Positions 1-64,000 of a DNA stretch of 64,000 nucleotides are shown piece after piece. The DNA is from Chlamydoabsidia padenii. Lineage: Eukaryota > Mucoromycota > Mucoromycetes > Mucorales > Cunninghamellaceae. The translations under genes were made by a program, and so were the position numbers. Numbering within the stretch: the first letter of the stretch is position 1; every line of letters starts with the position of its first letter. The stretch is taken from positions 31,042 to 95,041 of the forward strand of contig JAIWND010000059.1 in NCBI GenBank assembly GCA_025330725.1, read 5' to 3'. Below the pieces are notes generated by a model, which saw only the letters and a program-made list of their open reading frames with translations, made no database searches and was not told where the DNA came from.

Positions 1-70
1 AAAAAGAAAATGGGTTAACTTCACACGGGCTACGTGTTCTCTTTCTTATCTTTGTAAGCAAACACTTTAC

Positions 71-167
71 ATTTGACTTTGCCGAAAGAACCAGTACCAA
101 TAGTTTTGATGATTTGATATTGACCAATTCGAAGTCGTTGTTGTTGTTGTTGTTGATTAGTAGACAT
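71..167 (-). CDS. SNF1: SNF1/AMPK-alpha protein kinase, first exon only (gene continues off the left edge)
   Basis: The exon reads from an ATG at 165-167 on the minus strand and gives 32 codons: a short poly-Gln stretch, then RLRIGQYQIIKTIGTGSFGK, the start of a Ser/Thr kinase domain with the glycine-rich loop GTGSFGKV. The RIGQY..IKT lead-in is typical of the Snf1/AMPK catalytic subunit, the energy and glucose-derepression kinase. The exon stops at 71, followed by a GTAAAG donor. The intron runs off the window with a TTAAC branch-like motif and a pyrimidine tract at its end. Because only the N-lobe tip is visible, another CAMK-like kinase cannot be excluded. Confidence 0.7.
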
Positions 168-215
168 GTTTTGAATCACTTGGTTTATAAAAAAAAAAAA
201 AGAAGTGTGTTGATG

Positions 216-283
<68 letters not shown>
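216..283. repeat. A68 homopolymer
   Basis: An uninterrupted run of 68 A on the plus strand lies between the SNF1 start and the CPSF30 stop. On the minus strand, on which both genes are read, it is poly(dT) about 50 bp upstream of the SNF1 ATG. It could be a nucleosome-depleting promoter tract. Its exact length is unreliable in any assembly. Confidence 0.9.
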
Positions 284-286
<3 letters not shown>

Positions 287-398
287 TCTCACATTTCGGA
301 CTTTTGATCCAACGAGAATAAGAGCATACTGACGGCCCACATGATTGGTCTACTCTGTTACAACATAATAAGTGTCTTTTATTGATATATATTCTATT

Positions 399-611
399 CT
401 AAGGATTAGATCGGCCGTTGGGACATTTGTTTGCATAATGACCTTGTTCGCCACACTTGTAACAGGTGACATCTTCCAATTTTCGGTAAGGAGTTCGTTG
501 CCTATTATTATCATTGGTTGAGAACCTTGGTTGTTGTTGTTGTTGTTGTTGTTGCCCAAAGAATGGTTGCTGCTGTACATGATAAGAGTGTTGCTGTGGT
601 TGTTGATATGT

Positions 612-643
<32 letters not shown>

Positions 644-1343
644 GGTGGTGTGACTCGTCATTATTGCTTACGAGTGGTAGTTCGTATTTAGGATGTCCAT
701 TAGTGCAATTCAATCCATCAGGGCAAAAGCCTGTTAAATAGTTTTGACAAACCATTTTGCGTACGTGTTTATGCCGGCAATGAGGTCCTAGAAAACAAAA
801 ATAATCAGTCAATGACACTTGTTTTTTTTTTTATAGGATGGTGTTTCAAACCTTACCATGTTTACAAAACCCTCGAGCATACCAAGGACACTCTTTTTGT
901 TTGCTTTCAGGATCTATATGTAGATACATACATTCATCACCGTTACAACATTCACCATATTTCGAATAAAACCAACATTCAGGCATTTTCTTCATATTAA
1001 AGACATGAAGAAATTCACACCGATCACCTTTCTTGCACAATCCTCTTAACCAATGTTTACAGACCACAAGTTTATCCTGATCGGAATCCTTGTGTTTAAA
1101 TGGGCAGCGACCGCCTTTAGTACAAGTGCCTTTAAGGAAATATTTACAGACTGGTTCATCTATTTTTAACAAAAGAGAGATCAGAGATGGGCCAGTGCAA
1201 TAGAAAAAGAAGTTCATTGTTGTTTTCTTACCTTCACGCTTATTGAAGCTATCCAAATCCAAACCTAGCTCTTCTTTTATAAAGTCTTCAAAGTCAAACT
1301 TGATATTGGTGCGGTCAATATATTGTATAGGGGATACAAGCAT
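399..1343 (-). CDS. YTH1: CPSF30/Yth1-type CCCH zinc-finger subunit of the mRNA 3'-end processing complex
   Basis: Model: complement(399..787, 857..1159, 1232..1343), all GT..AG junctions in frame. The product has five CCCH zinc fingers in tandem (from CKYFLKGTCTKGGRC through CQNYLTGFCPDGLNC), then a His/Gln-rich linker and a C-terminal CCHC knuckle (CYKCGEQGHYANKC), which is the CPSF4/CPSF30 layout. Yeast Yth1 lacks the knuckle; metazoan and many fungal forms carry it. The protein binds AAUAAA-region RNA in the nuclear cleavage and polyadenylation factor. The start chosen (ATGCTTGTATCC at 1341-1343) gives the short acidic N-terminus (IKFDFEDF) usual for the family. A GTGAGT donor near 1507 and TTTAAG acceptor near 1360 suggest a spliced 5' UTR. 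Confidence 0.9.
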
Positions 1344-1518
1344 GTCAAACAAACGGTGGGAGCCCTTAAAGAAAAAATGAAAAAATGAACGTCCATCATA
1401 ATAAAACACAGCCTTGAGTAACTTGAATTTTTCGTCGAATGAGCGGAGAATAAAATGTCAGTTAGCGTTTTGCGGAAGAAGATATGATGTGTAACTTTTC
1501 AACTCACCTTCTAAGAGA

Positions 1519-1541
1519 CCCATCTCGCCTCAGAGGATGGG
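1519..1541 (-). other. Hairpin spanning the Fanzor stop codon (candidate guide-RNA 3' scaffold)
   Basis: CCCATC (1519-1524) and GATGGG (1536-1541) are perfect reverse complements enclosing an 11-nt loop that contains the TGA stop of the Fanzor reading frame. In TnpB and Fanzor loci the guide RNA commonly overlaps or follows the 3' end of the nuclease gene and the element's end. Placement fits that rule; function is inferred. Confidence 0.35.
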
Positions 1542-4500
1542 GAGCCGAGTGTTCCCATACCAGGAAGGACGCGACCCAAAAAGATGTTTAGCTAATACAT
1601 TATCTGTTGTTGTTGTTGATGTTGAGAAAGCAGGATACGCCACATTTGTGGCAGCCAGATGTATACCAATTTTAATGATGTTAATGGCAGCATTTGCATC
1701 TCGACCACGAAATGAGTATCCATGCTTTCTTCCAAAGCAATCGGGGTTGATACAATGGATGACACCAAGGTTGGAGCGACCGTTCCGACGCTTTGGATGC
1801 TGGACACGACTATCACAAAGGCAGCATAGTTTGGATGACAAGTATTTGTTTGTGTCGATCAATTTTGTATGTAATTTCGAATACAATGCCATTTGTAGCC
1901 GGTCCGTACTTCTTCTTTTTTGCCCATGGATTCTTGAACCAAAACCACGACCAGCATCGCCATAATAAATGGTGATGGGTGCAGTGATTTTTTTTCCTTT
2001 CCCTTTCCCTTTTTTAGCCGTAGCAGGAGCAGCAAGGGAAGCAGAAGTAGTAGCACAAGCAGCACTAGCAGAAGAGAAAGCAGAAGCAGAAGAAGAAGAG
2101 GAAGAGGAAGAAGGAGCAGCCTTTATGATCTGATTAGCGACGGTGGTGTACGCCTTGTCACGAAAAGGCAGCACACCGTTCTTTATCTTCTTCATCCAGG
2201 ACGATTGGTGATAAAATTGTGTCGAAATGTCTCTTGATTGCTTGTTATAGAAGAGTTTATCAATGAGCACCTCACATACATTGTCGGTTTTGATTTTTTT
2301 TTCCCAGTTCCGACAAATGTTTTTCCACCACCAAGACATTATCGTTCTTTTTCTTTTCACCTTGCAGCTTGATTCGGTTTTGCAAGGTCCGGGCTTTACT
2401 GCTAATGGACTTGGCCGATATTTTTTTCTTGACAATCTTCAAAACTTTTTTTCTTGCATCTTTATTGTTGTCGAGATGTTGTTCCAAAGCTGCATACTTG
2501 TTAGAAAGTAAGAGGTACGTCCCTGCTTGTTCCGAGTTCATAATCACCGCCGACGCCATGGTCTTGACACCAGGATCGACGCCAATATAATTGCTTCCAA
2601 CTCGTAGGTAGCCATCAACAGTAGGTTCACAAGAAGAAGTAGTATCAACGGATTTTTTTTACCATTGATGTTGTTGTAGATCACCGCTTTCTTCTTCTTA
2701 GCTACATCAATGTCACCATATACATCAATAACTTGACGGTATATGCGATTCAAAGATGCTTTGTTGATTTTCCGCTTTTCGATACTTGCTTTTTTATCTT
2801 CCATGAGCTGACTGCTGGGTGATTCACGGAAAGACTTGACAATGTTGAAAATCTGTTGATTATTGTCTTTGATAGTCTTTTGCAAACAAGATACGGACGC
2901 CTTGATACCTTTCAGTCGTGCATAAAGGTTGTTGGTTTCTTGTTTCAAAGCGGCTATGTCGTCCCAGTCTTTTTGTTTGTCAGCTTGCTGTCGATGTGCT
3001 TTTTGATCAACCGTCTAAGAAGCAAACGAATGAGAAGATTCCTTTTTGTTATAAGTCACTTGAAGATGGATGACGCCAGAAGATGTAATGATGATCTTAT
3101 TATTGAATTCAACATTTCTTTTGGCACACAATCCTTCAACCTCTTGCATATCAATACCTGTTTCGAAAATGGCTGCAGGATTCGGAGGAGGCCATTTTCA
3201 AACTTGTAATCGAATCGTCTTGTCTGGTTTTTAATATGCTTGTATTTTTCTTGTTCGAGTCGTCAACACATCGGGTGAATGTATAAAGACCATGGAGATT
3301 GATATGGAGAGCATGTAGTGTGCCCAGAGAAGGTTCAGGTGTCATTTTACGTGAGTATCGACCATAACCAGTGGATTGCAGCACCGCGTTACACATATCG
3401 ATAGTGTGAAGGTTTACCAATACATGACTATCAATCTCGGCTTCATTCACTTCTTGTAAAACAAAACGCCGAAAGAATGTAAAAACCTTGACGATGGGAG
3501 CAGTTGACTGTTCGTTTATTGCTGGGAAGGTATCCATAATTTCCTCTTGCGTGAGCGGATCGTCATTTGGTTTTTATCGTAGGTGTTTCATCAAAAATCC
3601 ACATAAACGATTGATCATCGCTGCGCTGGGACAATGCTGAAGATCTGAGGTAGGCGCCGAGGTAGTATCCATTACTTCATCATTCATTGTTTCAGTAGAA
3701 GGATTGTCTTGTTCAATACGAGCATTCTCTTTTTCAATAAGAATATGTTCTTTTCTCATGTTTGCGATTTTGGCTTTCAGATCATTGAGTTCGGTTTCGA
3801 GATTTTCCTCCTTGGTTCTTTCATACAGGATTTTTTTCTCATGGTGAGCTTTTGGTGTAGGTCGTCCAAATTTTTTTGTGTTTCCAGAGCAGCAATTCCA
3901 GTTGTCTCCGATCAACCATAAGTTTTAGTATTTAAGACTTCTTTCCAGCAGGATTCTTGGTTTTTTTTCGAGTGAGCACTAAAAAAAAAAAAAAAGAGTA
4001 ACATCAGTACTTTAATTATCTTCATTATAGAATCAGTTGGTTTTCTTTTATTTACCCGCTAATTCTGTCATAGTATGATTTTTCTCATTCTGGACACAGA
4101 TTTATCCGTAACAGCAAAGTAATAGCCTTTTTAATAACATAGTTCACCCGTTTGTCTGCGTGCATATTTATAATGTTAATTGCCATTATCGTGAATTGAG
4201 GAAGAATTAATGGATAATACCCATCAGGTAAGTCGTTTAAAAAGCGTGAATCAAAGTCTTTGTATGGAAGTATCAACTCTTCATTGGTAACTTTTAAAGA
4301 TGACATCCCCATGGAAAAAATGACATTTGAGAGGAAGACGTAGACATTTCAGTGGAAAAGTTGACATTTGAGAAGATGACGCTTCATCATGCACTGCGCA
4401 GTCCTTTCGTTGTTTTGCACCATAATACTTGTCAAAGAGATGTTCAAGATGTCGATTTGTAAATGTATCCAATAGTTTTCTTTTTTGAGAATCCGTTCGT

Positions 4501-4841
4501 GTTTTCATATTCATTAGTCTGTCCTTCATGTCCCGGTTGATGTGAGACAGTTTTTTTTCGCATTTTTGTCGGAGATGGGAAGATGGTACAATGTCAGTAA
4601 CAAATGAATAAGAAGAATGGCTGTCCAAAATATAACAAAGATACATTAGCTGTCTTTAATAATATATAATTTGATGGATTTACCTGTCAAGGTAGGACTG
4701 TGCGATCAGGGGTACCATGATTGACATCTCGTATACTACATCAGAAACAGTCTTCATCACATCCAAGTATCTTTCTCGCCATTTTGGTCTTCTAATTTTC
4801 GTATTTTTCTTGATGGTCTTCACACCTTGGTTTACCTTCAT
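1530..4841 (-). pseudogene. Decayed Fanzor (eukaryotic TnpB-like RNA-guided nuclease) gene
   Basis: Pieces in order along the minus strand: 4684-4841 joined by an intron to a segment starting at 4653; a coiled-coil piece 3574-3915; 3151-3537; 2660-3050; 2300-2655; and 1530-2300. The last three carry a RuvC nuclease: RuvC-I YIGVDPGVKTMASAV near 2560-2600; a YYGDAGRGFGSR segment near 1950 in the RuvC-II position; a zinc ribbon CCLC...CINPDC; and RuvC-III GRDANAAINI near 1690. This order is the TnpB/Fanzor signature. Breaks: in-frame TAA near 3576, frame changes near 3180, in the A8 run at 2655-2662 and the A9 run at 2294-2302, and a TAG near 3016 that could be a short intron acceptor. A Ser/Ala/Lys-rich insert lies between RuvC-I and RuvC-II. 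The N-terminal assignment (3574-4841) rests on strand order and style and is less certain. Two breaks in homopolymers could be assembly errors, so the copy may be less dead than it looks. Confidence 0.72.
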
Positions 4842-4896
4842 TCGCTTGTTTCCTCTTAATTTTGGCTGGTCATCTGATTGCTTTCTTGGGTGAGGT

Positions 4897-5266
4897 TACT
4901 TCATCATATACTGCATCAACGTTTTCTGCTACAAACTTTCGCCATTTCACCTCCAGTGCAGAATAATATTTGACACAGAAGTCCGTCATACTATCTGCAG
5001 TCGTAGTTGGTGGCACATCTGCATGTGAAAGAATGACCAGTAAGTAAATTTATATATACTTACTCACTCTCCTTTTTACCTCCATCTTCCAGCTTCCCGT
5101 TGTATTCATTCCACAAGGCTGCGGATTTTTTATAAACTAAACGAAAACGAGGTTTCTGTTGATCCTCCTTGTATCTTTCCAATATGACTTCTTTACTTGT
5201 GGGGATGTTTTTGTAGGATTTGACAACTTTCTTCGGCTGTTCCTCCAGTCGGTCCTTGAATGCCAT
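4897..5266 (-). CDS. Short two-exon ORF upstream of the Fanzor locus, function unknown
   Basis: An ATG at 5264-5266 opens a Lys/Glu-rich frame to a GTGAGT donor at 5067; the second exon starts at 5018 after CACATGCAG and continues in frame to about 4897 (segment TDFCVKYYSALEVKWRKFVA, then a stop). The total is about 110 residues, hydrophilic, with no signal peptide or membrane segment. I do not recognise it. It may be a 5' exon of the Fanzor-bearing element, because it lies on the same strand and is separated from the next Fanzor-like exon by under 60 bp, or an independent relic. Confidence 0.35.
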
Positions 5267-5279
5267 TTTGATGAAATGA

Positions 5280-6236
5280 TCACATCGTCCTGTATACTGG
5301 AATGATTATAAAAACTTCGTCCATCGTCCATCCTCAGGTGGAGGGATAGAGTGAGATGTATTTGACGGGGCAGCGTCTTCATCCATATGTATATATATAA
5401 AGTAGAAGGAAGTGGTAGAGAGAGTTTGTTTTTTTAAAAAAAACAAGAGTCAATCATGTTTTATATATATTTACTGATGCCGGATGTGACCCCTTTTTTT
5501 TCTTATCCTATTTGAACATAATCATTGATATATATATAATAGCAATGTGGATTTGATAAATGGCATCTTCGCTTTGTACTCTACTTGACTCTTTCCATTT
5601 ATTAGTGACACGACGATTCTAATCAACATGGAATCTTGACCGATTGTAACTCGAACATGTGAAAAAGTGGAGTAAAAGCAAGCACACATGGTGTTTCTTC
5701 CTTTTTTTTTTTCTATATATTTTTTAATAAAACACATCATCTTTTCTTGATCCCTTGCTCGTTGATATTGTCACTCGCAATTAGACTGTTGTGTAGTTTA
5801 GTTAATACAGATGAAGAAAAAAAAAAGTAACAGGGACATGATTGTGAGGAAACGTAATTAAAGTTTTAGAGAAGAGGTGGTGCACGGACATTGTGTAACA
5901 ATGATCGATAAAGAGGATGATCAAGATGGGAATACAGTCAAGGGTAATAGATAGATAAATACATACACTAGTAAAGATTTTTTCCCATTCAAATAGAAAC
6001 AATAGCACCACCATCCATCAATAAGAAAAACATGACCTTCTTCATCGAAACAATAGGATTTGACACCAAGCGGGATATTAACATTATACAGGTTCAGGAA
6101 TCACTTTTTACTTCTCTTTCGCTTGTTTCTTCTTCTTTACCTTTTTCTCACTTTTAAGATTGATACTAAACATCACTGTTTTTCTCTTTCTTGTTTTTTC
6201 TTTTGACACGTCTCTGCCGTTTTCGAAGAGCGGAAA
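5280..6236. other. AT-rich stretch without a recognisable gene
   Basis: Several TATATATA runs, T and A homopolymers, and only short ORFs in unrelated frames. No protein motif, RNA gene or terminal repeat was recognised. Confidence 0.6.
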
Positions 6237-6311
6237 TCAAACTTTGATTGTGGCCATCAGGTAAAAGAAAAAAAAGAAAAAAGAGTATTTGTACAACCTG
6301 TCACTCACGTA

Positions 6312-6842
6312 TGGTGTTGGTAATGATATAGCCGGCGGTAATGGTTTTTCCATCAAGATCTCCAATAGGTGCCATTCCTTATCGTCGGTAATGGTGCTGA
6401 CAATTACATTGTCGGCCGTGGCGGGTTTTTCGGTGAAAACCCATATTTGGTGCCTCAGTCTGCGCAAATATAGACTCGAAGGTAGCCAACACCTGACAGC
6501 CAACATTTTACGATTGGCTTTGAAAAACTGTCGATTTCTACAACACTTAGAAATCCGTCAAGTCAACCGGGTGTACCTTTGGCTGAAGGTGGCGATCAAG
6601 AAGACTGTCAAGTTCCCAATGACAATGGTGGTAATATCAGGACAATTTTGGTGGAGAACTTACATCTATACAACTCCACGCTTGACAACATTGCCTATTA
6701 TTGTACTTTGTTGTCATGTCTTGGTTTGATTCACACTGGTGGTGGCAATGAAGTAGTCGGCGGTGGAGGTTTTTGCATCAAGATCTCCAATTGGTGCCAT
6801 TGCTTATCTGTCGGTCATGGTGTTGGGGATTGGGATGATTAA
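6312..6842 (+). pseudogene. LRR/F-box-like gene fragment flanked by ~85-bp repeats
   Basis: Around 6490-6560 the plus strand reads LRLALKNCRFLQHLEIRQV, the cadence of a leucine-rich repeat of the F-box/LRR type. The frame then changes and continues as an acidic Asn-rich segment followed by an ENLHLYNSTLDNIA-type repeat to 6842. Two similar ~85-bp blocks, 6312-6398 and 6738-6822, both containing CATCAAGATCTCCAAT, bracket the fragment, and a weaker third copy lies at 6392-6465. There is no start codon or complete frame. I read it as a broken piece of a repeat-type gene; the LRR call is by pattern only. Confidence 0.35.
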
Positions 6843-7486
6843 AATATAAAGAATAAAGGAATAAAAAAACATAGTGTATCTAAAAAGTAGAAAGGCTAGT
6901 GAGTACGATGGGATTCTTTTATACTTTATTGACATTGCTTGTTCCGTGAACTGCAACATTGTTATAAATAAAAAATCATACTCTCTGTAAATATAATGGT
7001 AACTGGGAATGTTATATAGACAAGGAATAATACATGGGTTTCACCTACAGGGAGGATATTAACCTAGAATGGATGACTTCTTCTTTGTTTTATTAACTAA
7101 GGTTTGTTTCTAATCGGAATTCAGTTGAAAACTATTGATGATGGAGATGGCCAGTCTATACATCTGAGTCAATGGTAAAATCAATCCATGCAAACATGTC
7201 AAGCGGGACTTTAATTGAAAGACCGCTTTCTCTCTTCTGGTTTTACTACCCACCATTTCATGATACGGCATTGCCCCCTACCAGTCTATTCCGCATGACT
7301 TTTTTTTCAAGTGGATTTCATAGTGTAAAGTGGACTCTCCGAGGACGTTTAAAACAGTTAAAATGGAGCATTTTTATTGGCCAAATAATAAGGTCAAAGA
7401 AGCGGACGGAAACGTCCGCCAAGAATAGTACTTAATAAAGGCATTTGTTATTACAAAAAAATAAAAAAATAAAGGCATTTGTGTTT
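6843..7486. other. Intergenic, nothing recognised
   Basis: AT-rich DNA with one 87-codon plus-strand ORF (7172-7435) that has no motif I recognise. It lies downstream of the LRR-like fragment and of the 3' end of the MULE pseudogene. Confidence 0.5.
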
Positions 7487-9801
7487 TTACATTGTAACGG
7501 ATTTAGCCAAATTGTCGGGATTGGCGCCTTGTTGGTTGTTGGTGGGTTGTTGGATTGACACTTGTACATGTTGCAGCTGGACAATGTCAGGGAACAAGAT
7601 GAGGTGCACCCTGTTCACCAAAAACATGTGCTTGCATCTTGTTGCTCCTCGGGCAAAGGAAAAGCAGGTGCACGAAACCATTGAGTTTTCATTTTCACTC
7701 AATGTGATGGTGTACACCAATTCGATTTCCAAGTTAAATGATTTGACCTTGATGATACCAGGTTCTTCATCATCAACCATCGCCCTGACTTCGTCATCTA
7801 TGTAAAAAAAATATTCAATGTTACTGCCCTTTTTTTTGGGGGGGGGGTATGCTGCCCCTTTTTATCTTCCTTTTCATTACCGGTAACTGCATTCGCCCTT
7901 CTTCTTTTTTTTCGACGGCAGTGAGAACATCGCTCCGGAAAAGAGCACCAGTCTTGATGCAATCTGCCATGAAGTCTGGCACGACCATCTCAAAAAGTAT
8001 ATACACTAGGACATCCACGCGCTGAGTCCTCAAATTGCGCAGATAAACCTCCTTCAACCCATGATACCACGCTTTAACGTAATTATTGGTCTTTCTGTCA
8101 TAGTCGCATTACCGTAAACAGCACGATTTCAAGTTTAAAAACGTTTTTATTATTAACATCAACAGTCGCAACAACATAACAGGGTATAATATTCTACAGG
8201 TTCCTTGTATCTATACTACAATCACCATCACCATCCATGCCACCTAAGGACTTACCTTTCTCCAAGCCAATGACCACTTGTCTTTTTTCCAAGATATTCC
8301 CGGTTGAAGTAAACAACCAGGGCAGACCCATCCCACACATCATCAGCTACACCATTGCATCCTTCGAATTCCCGACAAGCTTCTTCAAATGCATCACTGG
8401 TTTGGGAAACCATCACCGCAATCATTTGTCGAAGTACGTCGTCACGGTAAGCCTTGCGTTCCGTTGCTGTTGGTGCTGTTGATCCACGCGCGATGACCTT
8501 CACCTTCTTGACGATGTTTTCCCTCCAGGCTTTAATATATGCCATTGGCAAATTACAATTTACGTGTCATCACCAAACGCAGTCTTGATACCAGCGATTT
8601 CAGCATCCGAGTTGTCGATCATCACTTGACAAGGAGTGTAGCCATGGTCTTGTCGAAGCCACTGAAGCCAGAATTGCACAGAGTAAGAAGACGCATGATT
8701 GATGACCATAAAATCAACGGGTTGCCCTTTACCAATCTCAGATGATCGTACCACCAAGGTATAGAGATAGCAGAAGTTCCTTGGGTTAGTGACGCAGGTC
8801 TTGTGTGTGGAGTCCAAGCATACAATCCTACCATCCTTTCGTAAACACTATACCCAAAAAAATAAAGAGTCAACAGTAATATACCACCTTGTTCCTTCGT
8901 CTTTTTTTTCCCCATATACTTGCGTTCATTTGCCATTGAGAGCAGAAAGCAAAGGCAAACATCCCATCGTCCATCGTCTCCATATTTTTCGTAAAGCAAT
9001 AACCACCAGATTGGACGATCTTTTCCTTCCATATTATCAAACTTTTCGCCAGATCAGTATCGAGTTGAGACTTGGATTTCATCGTCTTGTTCATCTGGTA
9101 ATACACCGACTGATAGGTGAGACGTATTGATTCTTCGATGTTCGCATTTCCCCCCATTTCCATAATCAATGCCAGCTGATTGGCATCCTGGCGTAAGAGA
9201 TGTTCAATGCTGATCCAGGTCATCTTGTTTTCAATTAATTGCTGAAGAGCCAAACGAGCATCTCGACTTATGGGCGCTGAGGCCATGTCCTGGACGCTTC
9301 CGGGTGTATGTCCAGTGTGTCCCCAATGGTATTCGATAGTAGCTTCCGTGGGGTCTTCTTTGGGGACCAACATCTTCAAGTACGCTTCACATTAACAGGA
9401 AATCGAATCATGAGTACGAACAGAGCTGGTGGACGGTTTAGACGCTCCAACTAGGTGGAAACAATAAGTCTATAAAAAAGTACACATTATTGGTTAGATG
9501 AATATATATTATACGGACACTTACTTCTCTATAACGTAGTGCATATTTTGAGTGCTAGTTCGATAATTGCACCATGGTAAGGTGTTCCATCGTGATTGCC
9601 AAACCTCTGAAGGAATACAACATTAGCCTTGCGAGTAGGTCCACTTGTTTTGTCGTATAAGGAGAAGTTGCACCTTTGTTCTTCTCTTTTACGGAAGGCA
9701 TCGAAATCACGACGAGGCATGGTAAACTTGGTGGGTTCTTCGCGTGTTGAGAAAACTTCATGGAAAGGCTCCACAGTACCGGTCGTGCGTCTATTCAACA
9801 A
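7487..9801 (-). pseudogene. MULE (Mutator-like) transposase with SWIM zinc finger, broken
   Basis: Read on the minus strand: an N-terminal basic region (9529-9801), a central part (8870-9379) with DDGMFAFAF and then CLDSTHKTC near 8810, a segment VMIDNSDAEIAGIK near 8600 that gives the second transposase acidic residue, a CQWHI/KAW motif near 8540 (usual MULE C..H helix), a helical region (8252-8500), 7821-8057, and a terminal SWIM motif SCTCFSFARG...RCKHMF (7620-7690). This is the MULE domain order. A TAA followed by a one-base shift occurs at the CQWHI motif near 8540-8565, so the copy is disabled even though some gaps (for example 9380-9528, 8820-8869) look like introns. No terminal inverted repeats were found by eye. 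Confidence 0.65.
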
Positions 9802-10229
9802 AGTAAAGGCGGATTGGATAATTGACCCTTTTTTTATATATAAAAAGAGGAAGGATGAAAGGAAGAAAAGTTTGTTTTTTCAATGATTTAAAGCGGCAGG
9901 GCAAAAAGCCACAGGGTCAAGTCTATCGGGATTCGAATCCTTGTTTTACTCAAAATTAAATTTACGCCACAGCCTTGGTGCCGGATCAGCAAACCTCACA
10001 ACAACGGGCTTTGAAAAATATACGAAGTCGAAGTCGTCAGTCGGACATCACAACCCAAGACGCCGAAAAATTTACACTCCGTATGCGGCTGTTTCAGACT
10101 CCCAAATTCCACTATCACTTTTTGGGCTTTGTGTTTTCCTCCCTCATTTAATTTTGTCTGTGGGTATAAAATCTATTTTGGCTTTGATTGTTTTATCTCT
10201 CTTCTTTATACAAAAAGAAAACAAAAAAC
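9802..10229. promoter_or_regulatory. Upstream region of the amine-oxidase-like gene
   Basis: 428 bp between the MULE pseudogene and the ATG at 10230. It contains a CT-rich stretch (about 10140-10210) just before the start, as is common in fungal promoters and 5' UTRs, and a GGGATTCGAATCC motif at about 9928-9940 resembling a tRNA T-arm, but no full cloverleaf. No TATA box is convincing. Confidence 0.4.
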
Positions 10230-10508
10230 ATGACCGAACGAACAGAAGAAAAAATCGTCAAAGTAGCAGTTATAGGATCAGGATTGGCAGGACTATCAGC
10301 CGCCTACCTCTTGACAAAAGGGGTGTCTACAGATAATGAAAACAATGTGAAATTCCAAGTTCATTTATTTGAGAAAAACAATATGATCGGGATGGATGCT
10401 GCCTCTATATCTATAGGATCCGAAGACAAAAATGTTCGAATTGATGTGAGTAAGAAGAAGTGATATGTGTAGAACAATGGTGTACTGATTGAATCATTTT
10501 ATCATTTC

Positions 10509-10578
<70 letters not shown>

Positions 10579-12239
10579 TCAAGGTACCTATGCGGTCGTT
10601 TATGTCTGGTAAGGAACAAACAAACAAACAAACAACGCATCGAGAATAGACGAGAATAACAAACAAACTCATACTTTCCCTTTCCCCTTGTCATCCAGGC
10701 TATTATTCTCATCTTATAAACTTGTATAAGCATCTCGGTATTCCTGCAAAACCAGCCCGGTTTAGTTTTGGTTGGTATACCATCGAGTCATCACATCCTA
10801 TTGACAATAAATTAGCACACGATATTGCGTCTTATACCAACAACCAATCTTACTTGACATATAGTGGTGCGCGTACAGTAGGACGACTTCAAGCCATTTC
10901 AAGATCTTCTCTCTCCAAAGATGACATTGATTCGACACCCAATTGGACATTGCGAGTCAACGATCTACTTATTTCCTGGTATTTCATGATTGTTGTTGCC
11001 TTGTCATATAGTTGGCTCATGATCTTGACACTCTGGCTTCATCATCGTGGACATCTCCGAAATCCTCAACATTCAGTTGCGAAAATGACTCTTGGACAGT
11101 GGTTGAAGGAGAATCACATTCATCCTTATTTCATACATCAAGTATTTGTTCCTTTGTTCGCTGCAGTTTGTACCAACTCATGGGGAGCCATGTTGAATTA
11201 TCCTGCAAGTGAAGTGCTTGGTAAGCTCAAATACAATGGATCAAAAAAAAAAAAAAGTACTGACGAATAATTTCTATTTTTGGAACATCTCCCCTTTGTA
11301 CCAGAATACATGGCAATGGGATTATTCCAAGAATCATATGTGGTGACACAAGGCATTCGGCAAGTGGTGGATCGACTGGCAGAACCCTTAACCCATATTC
11401 ATCTCGGTGTTCATATCAAATCGATTCAACCTGATCGCAAAAATGGATATCGTTACGTATTACAGGATGAACAAGACCAGACCTACGAATTTGATCATAT
11501 TATATTTGCAACTCAAGGAAATCAAGCGAAACGGATGTTAGAAACATGCTACACTTCTGTCAGAGACCATCATAATGATATCACGAATAATAACAACAAT
11601 AATAATAATAGCAATAGCAATGACGACGCGGTACTAATATCAACATTGGAAGCTCAATTGAATATGTTGAAACAATTCAGTTATGATACATCCTTGGTCA
11701 TTAATCATACCGACACTCGCTTATTACCCAAAGACAAAACTCATTGGCGAGCTCTTAACTTTGCACGTATTGATCACACTATCCAACCCGATCCAAAGAA
11801 TGATAACAAATATATCATTCCTTTCCCTCATGATACAACGATGACCACTCATATTTTAAACTGGACACATTCTTGCTTTAATAATAGCGACGACGACAAG
11901 AGTGATGAGGATGATTTATCCGATCGATCACTTTACTTACAAACCACCAATCCTTGTATTAGTCCAGATCCTAAACATATCATTTCAGTCTCATGGTTTG
12001 AACGAGCGACTGTTACCTTGGCGTCTAAAAGAGCCATTGAATCTGATCTTTTCCCAACAACAGTACATAACAACAATGTCACTCTGGGTGCATGTCAGGG
12101 GACAAATGGTATTTGGTTTGTTGGATCTTATTGTTGGCGTGGTATCCCATTATTGGAAGGCTGTGTAGCTAGTGCAGAAAAAGTTGTTTTGGATGGACTC
12201 AGTGTTCAAGAAGGTGTAAATCTCAAAAGACCTTGGTAG
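10230..12239 (+). CDS. FAD-dependent amine-oxidase/NAD(P)-binding Rossmann oxidoreductase-like protein
   Basis: Model: join(10230..10445, 10584..10608, 10699..11220, 11305..12239), 565 aa, all junctions GT..AG in frame. The N-terminus carries the dinucleotide-binding motif VAVIGSGLAGLSAAYLL followed by the acidic FEK that binds the FAD ribose, and a VPMRSF...YYSHL segment seen in the predicted amine-oxidase/protoporphyrinogen-oxidase-like flavoproteins of fungi. Near residues 160-185 there is a hydrophobic helix (WYFMIVVALSYSWLMIL), so membrane attachment is possible. The C-terminus has IWFVGSYCWRGIPLLEG, the usual second FAD contact region. Substrate is unknown. A low-complexity Asn stretch and an acidic Asp/Ser stretch interrupt the middle. 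Exon 2 is only 25 nt. Confidence 0.8.
10510..10579. repeat. (ATT)n microsatellite inside an intron
   Basis: About 23 perfect trinucleotide units in intron 1 of the amine-oxidase-like gene (intron 10446-10583), ending a few bases before the TTTCAAG acceptor, where it replaces the usual polypyrimidine tract. Confidence 0.9.
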
Positions 12240-62874: not shown

Positions 62875-64000
62875 ATGTCCTCTAAACAATCTCTCCTCCC
62901 TACTCTTGGAATGGAATTCTCGACAATTAATGATTGTAGAACCTTTATTCAGGCATACGCTAAACAACAGGGTTTTGCGACTGGCACCACTTCAAGCAAC
63001 AACAACTTGGGAAAACTCTCTTTGGCTTGTGTTCATCACGGTCAGTATCGCAAAGGGAAATCAACAAACGACGAAGATAATAAATCCGCAGTGCACGACG
63101 ACGACATCATTGATCTTACCAAGAAGGTTTCCTCTGTCTCTGTCAAGAAACGCAATTGTAAAACTGGCCGGATTGGATGTCCTGTGAACTTCTTCTTCTA
63201 CCGTGGCCGCGACGACACCCAGCAGTTTAGGCTAACAAAGATGGAACTGGAGCACAACCACCCCATGGCATTATCTCAAGCGACTTACCATGTGCATCGC
63301 AAGCTGGACGATCAACAAGAAGCGAAGGTTTGGGATATGGTGTCAGCAAAAATACCACCTAGGGCGATCGTGGATCTTATGGCTCGGGATGGTGGAAATA
63401 TGATCGCCAAAGATGTCGCTAACTTGAATCAACGACGATTTGCTGGATTGGATAACGCTGGATGCAAGGACATGGGCGGGTTTATAAACTATTTGGAAGC
63501 CAATGGATACGAGGTGCGCTGGTTAAAGGATTCCGTCAACCGTACTGTGTGCTTCTTCTTTACTCACGAAAAGTGTATGCATATGGCAAGACGATTCAAC
63601 GAGGTGGTGGTGGTGGACGCTACTTACAAGACCAATCAGTTCCGCCTTCCTTTTGTCAACATGGTTGGGGTGAACAATGTGGGGTGCGACGACAAAACAC
63701 TGGCCAACTTTGCAATCGCTGGTGCCTGGATGGCGAAAGAATGCGAGGTGTCGTATACTTGGGTGATGGAACAACTACGAAACACTGTGTATATGGGTGG
63801 AAAGTGGCAACCTGGCTTATTTGTTACTGACCAAGCGCAAGCTCTGATCAACGCTATCGAAAAAATATATCCTTTGTCTAACCATTTGCTATGCTATGTC
63901 CACTTGATGAAGAACATGAAAACCAACACACTTCGCTACTTCACATCTGTCGAAGAATACAGCAAGGCGGAAATGGCATTCAAGAAAATGTGTCTTACGG
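62875..64000 (+). CDS. MULE transposase with FAR1/WRKY-GCM-like DNA-binding domain, incomplete at the window edge
   Basis: Open from ATG 62875 to the end of the window (375 codons seen). The N-terminal part has a zinc-binding region (RNCKTGRIGCPVNFFFYRG...LEHNHPM), then VWDMVSAKIPPRAIVDLM, and the MULE domain: first catalytic Asp in VVVDATYKTNQFRLP, AIAGAWMAKE, second Asp in FVTDQAQALINAI, and the C..H helix LLCYVHLMKNMK. No intron or stop so far. It is distinct from the two broken MULEs at 7487-9801 and 35842-36743 and could be an active copy. Confidence 0.8.
   Translation, partial: MSSKQSLLPTLGMEFSTINDCRTFIQAYAKQQGFATGTTSSNNNLGKLSLACVHHGQYRKGKSTNDEDNKSAVHDDDIIDLTKKVSSVSVKKRNCKTGRIGCPVNFFFYRGRDDTQQFRLTKMELEHNHPMALSQATYHVHRKLDDQQEAKVWDMVSAKIPPRAIVDLMARDGGNMIAKDVANLNQRRFAGLDNAGCKDMGGFINYLEANGYEVRWLKDSVNRTVCFFFTHEKCMHMARRFNEVVVVDATYKTNQFRLPFVNMVGVNNVGCDDKTLANFAIAGAWMAKECEVSYTWVMEQLRNTVYMGGKWQPGLFVTDQAQALINAIEKIYPLSNHLLCYVHLMKNMKTNTLRYFTSVEEYSKAEMAFKKMCLT

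Follow-up and report, generated by a model that had tools for sequence, protein, structure and literature searches.

The closest described counterparts of the element reported here are Fanzor1 genes, which code for eukaryotic RNA-guided nucleases, inside MuDr-type elements of three Mucorales; these elements with their 9-bp duplications have been in print since 2013 (PMC3627910). We analysed 64,000 nucleotides of Chlamydoabsidia padenii DNA (assembly GCA_025330725.1, contig JAIWND010000059.1, positions 31,042 to 95,041; this whole stretch is called the window), which near its start holds a composite element with a Fanzor1-like gene at one end and a broken Mutator-like element (MULE) type transposase at the opposite end, and the composite is of this already-known kind. 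The host assembly amounts to 34.2 Mb in 95 contigs, and C. padenii is a member of the Mucorales, as is Parasitella parasitica.

Compared by description, the elements of PMC3627910 and the C. padenii composite have in common the order Mucorales, the Fanzor1 cargo, MuDr-like ends and 9-bp duplications, but the former are said to be without MuDR transposase, whereas the C. padenii unit holds a broken MULE-type transposase. The MCi-2 family of Mucor circinelloides (PMC3627910) likewise has a uniform Fanzor-side end and a far side that varies among copies; in contrast, its duplications are 11-12 bp long and inverted ends are absent, while the C. padenii composites have 9-bp duplications and short inverted ends. 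In SpuFz1/Spu-1 from Spizellomyces punctatus (PMC10432273) the non-coding stretch from stop codon to right end is 75-80 nt long, the scaffold of SpuFz1 being 75 nt, against 92 nt in C. padenii, and numerous gene-less "ghosts" with ends are described there as well (134 in Spizellomyces). However, the RNA of SpuFz1 was shown by small-RNA sequencing and its enzyme is active, whereas the window copy of C. padenii is dead. Fanzors and IS607 TnpB proteins carry a signature of DPG in RuvC-I plus an alternative glutamate (PMC10711439); DPG is present in the window copy and both parts in its relatives, but the window copy has lysine (K) at the alternative glutamate. PpFz1 from Parasitella parasitica is a fungal Fanzor1 too (PMC11423790), although it was absent among the solved-structure matches of the C. 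padenii family pieces and profile. Our literature searches, which covered few subscription papers, gave nothing for Fanzor with Mucoromycota, PMC3627910 only for Fanzor with MuDR, and a single taxonomic paper for C. padenii.

Results

Near the start of the window stands what is very probably a divergent Fanzor1-like gene in a dead and inherited copy, which a MULE-type cut-and-paste DNA transposon of C. padenii carries as cargo (Table 1). Directly established are the borders of the element, its 9-bp duplication and similar ends, the transposase remnant, the many copies in the genome, the lesions of the gene and the loss of the alternative RuvC glutamate.

Alignment with other genomic copies gave a sharp homology border on the Fanzor side at about position 1415, and towards the opposite end the copies in the window and on C41, C23 and C32 stay homologous, with gaps, across the transposase remnant as far as 9967. 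Thus the original prediction, which had drawn the Fanzor locus as 1530..4841, was too narrow. Target-site duplications of MULE (MuDR) transposons are 9-11 bp long. The window element shows a duplication (9 bp) together with terminal inverted repeats (13/16), and a likeness of the two ends at 13 of 16 bases was reached by only one in 100,000 random pairs. Three further composites carry duplications, namely ATTATCTTT (9/9) on C23, GGTATTCCT (9/9) on C32 and one matching at 7/9 on C41. A chance origin of the 9-bp repeat was rejected because it is exact at three of the four composites. The element inserted upstream of CPSF30, at 63-72 bp from the start codon of that gene, and the predicted empty site before insertion reads ...AAAACACAGCCTT/GGTGCCGG....

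The transposase pieces gave Pfam matches to PF10551 (MULE; E 0.013), to PF21056 (a related RNase-H-like domain; E 0.0046) and to the SWIM finger (E 0.0018), all below cut-off. The order of these matches is that of MULE domains. Fanzor and MULE matches also lie close together at C61:10324-13352, perhaps a fifth composite. The C. padenii genome is rich in MULE transposase domains, with 82 matches to PF10551, and a second MULE transposase lies at the far end of the window (about 63604-63915, plus strand; PF10551 E 2.8e-20, with equal score at five other places).

Some results count against the composite as described. None of the window MULE pieces rises above the curated Pfam cut-off, and their place is absent from the 82 PF10551 matches; the MULE-family loci C68 and C73 have inverted ends and no 9-bp duplication that could be seen by eye; and the far side differs in the copies L032-L034 and L036. 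A rival reading takes the Fanzor part and the MULE for independent transposons lying next to each other: MULE copies without a nearby Fanzor match exist (C68, C73), Fanzor copies with another far side exist, and the two ends of the window element are alike at 13/16 only. However, both parts are present at four places with the same two borders and with a duplication spanning both (exact, 9/9, at three of them and 7/9 at the fourth). Two independent elements that merely adjoin would not produce this, and we regard separate transposons as very unlikely. An internal junction that joins window position 2039 to 4026 is common to L033, L034 and L036, and therefore an internally deleted form has spread. 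The two Fanzor copies L034 and L035 (C25:280000-294400) abut each other in opposite orientation.

The composite is only one of many related insertions. A Fanzor piece of 302 amino acids has at least 128 matches in the host genome at 78 or more loci (best non-self E 5.8e-154), and the terminal 27-mer of the element occurs in 138 copies with up to three mismatches, while its reversed control occurs in none. Of these 138 ends 100 were listed; a coding match stands within 1.5 kb of 18 of the listed ends, and the other 82 are ghosts without one nearby. Both ghosts that were read, of 367 bp (L050/L077) and 395 bp (L049/L078) on C1, have the Fanzor right end and no gene, and show 9/9 duplications (ATGCAACTT and CTCCTTCTT, respectively) with ends alike at 22/26 and 19/26 bases. 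The idea that the protein is a domesticated host factor instead of transposon cargo had no result in its favour and has to face dozens of dispersed matches, broken frames in the copies compared, and transposon ends with duplications; its probability is close to nil.

Table 1. Features in and around the composite element (positions in the window)
Feature	Positions	Strand	Basis or remark
Composite MULE-type element, whole, 8,552 bp	1416-9967	no strand	Sharp homology borders in other copies; flanking 9-bp repeat
Target-site duplication CACAGCCTT, Fanzor side	1407-1415	no strand	Exact repeat of 9968-9976
Target-site duplication CACAGCCTT, transposase side	9968-9976	no strand	Exact repeat of 1407-1415
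Terminal inverted repeat GAGTAACTTGAATTTT, Fanzor end	1416-1431	no strand	13/16 with opposite end
Terminal inverted repeat, transposase end	9952-9967	no strand	13/16 with Fanzor end
Broken MULE-type transposase	7487-9391	minus	RNase-H-like piece 8560-8847, SWIM finger piece 7487-7861; sub-cut-off matches and 9-bp duplication
Fanzor piece carrying GDAGRG, K in place of the alternative glutamate, zinc ribbon and RuvC-III	1530-2438	minus	
Codon for K at alternative RuvC glutamate position	1845-1847	minus	
Fanzor piece with RuvC-I GVDPG (2583-2569)	2272-2658	minus	
Fanzor piece preceding RuvC-I	2544-3014	minus	
Three broken Fanzor pieces (3015-3197, 3151-3573, 3574-3924)	3015-3924	minus	In-frame stops 3015-3017, 3574-3576
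N-terminal Fanzor pieces (4085-4348, 4281-4655, 4680-4895, 4870-5049, 5060-5305)	4085-5305	minus	
Right-end non-coding stretch, Fanzor stop region to element end; candidate guide-RNA scaffold	1416-1507	minus	Inferred
5'-splice-site-like GTGAGT just past the family's stop region	1502-1507	minus	
Presumptive guide, 15 host nt adjoining the duplication, upstream of CPSF30	1392-1406	minus	Analogy with PMC10711439 only
Host gene CPSF30 (CPSF4/YTH1), lying downstream of the element on its Fanzor side	399-1343	minus	First ATG 1343

The Fanzor gene itself lies on the minus strand as eleven overlapping or adjacent pieces between 1530 and 5305; some of the N-terminal ones are linked by GT-AG introns, read by eye, and others are broken. 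The motifs named in the original prediction are all present in the order given there: GVDPG (2583-2569), GDAGRG (1961-1944), CCLC (1826-1815), CINPDC (1754-1737) and GRDANAA (1706-1686). GDAGRG had been assigned to RuvC-II, and a conserved, glycine-rich segment does stand there, but it holds no glutamate. The catalytic glutamate of Fanzors is the "alternative" RuvC glutamate (PMC10711439), whose position, as placed in this analysis, would be immediately before the zinc ribbon. In the window this position is occupied by K (TNKYLSSKLC, 1853-1824). The motif could be read in 21 copies, after four chance rows had been excluded from its scan; 18 of them have E, two have K (the window and L014) and one has V (L013). 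Hence the family possesses the alternative glutamate and the window copy does not; one of the RuvC acidic residues, on whose retention the earlier identification had been staked, is lost.

Comparison of the window with four close copies (94-96% identical) revealed how far the decay has gone. Three lesions of the window recur in the copy on C23 (L030): a deletion of 35 bp at about 4888, a length change of 1 bp at about 4317 and a duplication of 7 bp at 5326-5332. The in-frame stop at 3574-3576 recurs in L030 as well as in L031, and the reading frame is broken near 3195 in L029, L031 and L032 as in the window. Restricted to the window are a 1-bp change at about 4358, the stop at 3015-3017, a 2-bp change at about 1550 and an 11-bp change at about 3872, where L030 also differs, in another way. 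Lesions that are common to separately inserted copies are therefore inherited and not assembly errors. The C23 copy, with which several lesions are held in common, has its own target-site duplication; thus the common ancestor of the two was probably already broken and was mobilised by proteins made elsewhere.

The suggestion that the nuclease core might be intact in the organism started from two frame breaks in homopolymers. Both breaks do lie in such runs: the A9 run is at 2294-2302, as reported, while the A8 run is at 2653-2660 and not at 2655-2662. The A8 length is seen in the window only, and the total length at the A9 site equals that of L032. A working Fanzor gene whose breaks are homopolymer assembly errors would be in line with these two runs and with the variation of run lengths between copies in the assembly. 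However, more breaks lie outside homopolymers, five of them common to other copies, and K stands at the alternative glutamate; for the whole gene this explanation is refuted by the 35-bp deletion and the stop codon common to other copies. It is extremely unlikely, and the intact core could not be upheld. The Fanzor copy in the window is almost certainly dead, unable to make protein. Public gene models of Fanzor copies (P0002 and P0004) were considered as evidence of working genes and rejected; P0004 skips parts of a broken copy and extends into the flank.

Judged from its sequence, the gene on the minus strand is that of a divergent Fanzor1-like nuclease in a decayed state. The published Fanzor/TnpB motif is D-X(125,275)-[TS][TS]XX-C4 zinc finger-X(5,50)-RD (PMC3627910). 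It is found in the single open frame of P0001, a metagenomic relative of 729 amino acids (33% identity, E 3.2e-107), as D411, TS606-607, C4 and RD; in the window it appears only across the A9 frame break, with a spacing of about 245 followed by SSKLC, C4 and RD. The same frame of P0001 holds GVDPG, EYLTSKLC, the C4 ribbon and GRDKNAA, with DPG, E and RD all kept, and GVDPG is present in both P0001 and the window. Fanzor1 proteins have two extra conserved residues, G500 and E536, 36 apart (PMC3627910). G567 and E603 of P0001 are also 36 apart, and by spacing and order they may correspond to this pair; the window equivalents are 38 apart, with K replacing E. Together with the profile comparison described below and the setting in a eukaryotic DNA transposon, the motif, DPG and the G-X35-E spacing in P0001 bear out the Fanzor identity as Fanzor1-like.

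Profile searches, named in the original prediction as a check, gave a mixed answer. Single window pieces matched PF07282, the TnpB zinc-ribbon family, weakly (E 0.036), and nothing exceeded the Pfam cut-off. When the 11 members of the alignment A5 were scanned singly, PF07282 was matched by seven of them, all below cut-off, and every other family listed was matched by one member only. On the other hand, a profile of the C-terminal block (the window piece and ten relatives), compared with a second, TnpB-type family that the host genome holds and that passes the PF07282 cut-off, was significant in hhalign (probability 95.8, E 7.6e-9, score 53.2; maximum of 30 column-shuffled controls 18.3). When P0001 was reduced to its zinc-ribbon region, the solved structure that matched best was the TnpB-like protein L79 of mimivirus (E 0.19), and TnpB or Cas12f made up three of the five rows up to E 10. 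Viral contigs held no relative of P0001. The protein searches, which detect only relatives with common short exact words and in part scored a capped set of candidates, added in later rounds one annotated C. padenii model (P0004) and then nothing more.

The Fanzor1 assignment is weakened by several of our results. No window Fanzor piece rises above the curated Pfam cut-off, and AlphaFold2 with four sequences gave no confident RuvC fold for P0001 (mean pLDDT 36.3). When solved structures were searched with the family pieces and profile, neither a Fanzor nor a TnpB protein came up with a significant E-value; the profile returned an unrelated sensor protein (E 0.0023) and leucine-rich repeat proteins (E 0.0036 and 0.043), which we took for chance matches of low-information stretches.

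The neighbouring gene was correctly named in the original prediction: the piece 846-1457 matches CPSF4/YTH1 structures (E 2.2e-48), so that the Fanzor does lie next to CPSF30, a gene for mRNA processing. A long poly-A run (about 216-283) stands between CPSF30 and a further gene, the start of which presumably resembles a SNF1-type kinase.

Discussion

The right end of the element raises the question whether the family made a guide RNA there. In working ancestors, a MULE transposase would have cut and pasted the whole unit, and the Fanzor protein would have bound RNA transcribed from the right end, the stretch of about 92 nt that follows the stop region, together with the first flanking host nucleotides. 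So guided, it may have cut the matching empty site, upon which the element would be copied back and its retention favoured. By analogy with described systems the right end would thus be a guide-RNA scaffold with the guide in the flank, a reading which is unproven. Folding 16 right ends to a consensus yielded no base pairs, a longer stretch reached -0.8 kcal/mol, and an Rfam scan of window positions 1-12000 found no family at gathering score. We compared 42 nt of right end, outside the bait and the terminal repeat, between the window and nine diverged copies. Only three of the nine are more conserved there than in the coding part (L038, L039 and L042; 76-83% versus 69-72%), while in L037, L040, L041, L044, L045 and L047 the right end (49-81%) stays under the coding identity (67-82%) in each; random stretches reach 57%. 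With no conserved RNA structure and with six of nine copies below coding identity, the guide-RNA reading stays unproven. Right-end conservation by itself was rejected as an argument for a guide RNA, because the two ghosts show that about 26 nt are terminal repeat and because six of the nine copies are not more conserved.

Most unusual is that two Fanzor families of the C. padenii genome carry, close to the Fanzor stop codon, a GTRAGT resembling a 5' splice site. We collected right ends with the 27-mer as bait (up to five mismatches) and collapsed identical ones to 37; GTRAGT is present in 27 of these, against 0.45 expected from shuffles, although related copies are not independent. It stands 77-94 nt before the end in 26 cases and at 50 nt in one, and in the window the distance from motif to element end is 92 nt. 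From the 20 loci taken for right ends, L043, L046 and L048 yielded none, and L035 overlaps L034. The annotated model P0004 takes the GTRAGT of its copy as donor and splices into the flank, which may be merely the choice of the gene predictor.

The second family, the one that passes the PF07282 cut-off, is represented by L001, L003-L006 and L008 (on C39, C41, C43 and C35). Its six copies have GTAAGT in five cases (GCAAGT in L001), a pyrimidine-rich stretch with CTAAAC in four and TTATAG in all six, and this intron-like stretch ends about 20-25 nt ahead of the point where homology between copies stops. The donor-like motif directly follows the stop codon (after ACC) in L001, L003 and L008, and in the near-identical L004-L006 the frame as read ends inside it. 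The flanking TAAACC and GGTTTA of this family could pair.

It could be that the making of Fanzor guide RNA is coupled to splicing in C. padenii, as a spliceosomal counterpart of bacterial IStrons, but we consider this unlikely. Splicing, or binding of U1 that blocks early polyadenylation, would then decide between mRNA and a guide RNA running into the flank. Among the papers listed by a literature search for Fanzor with intron, none, judged by title or start of abstract, deals with such a splice-site pattern.

A possibly intact Fanzor would be a candidate editing enzyme, which the window copy is not. Should the splice-site pattern prove real, the production of guide RNA would be tied to the spliceosome. 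What has been gained is a defined composite of MULE and Fanzor with its predicted empty site, many ghosts, and P0001 as an open relative. With these resources it becomes testable whether the cutting of empty sites by Fanzor helps a cut-and-paste transposon to persist.

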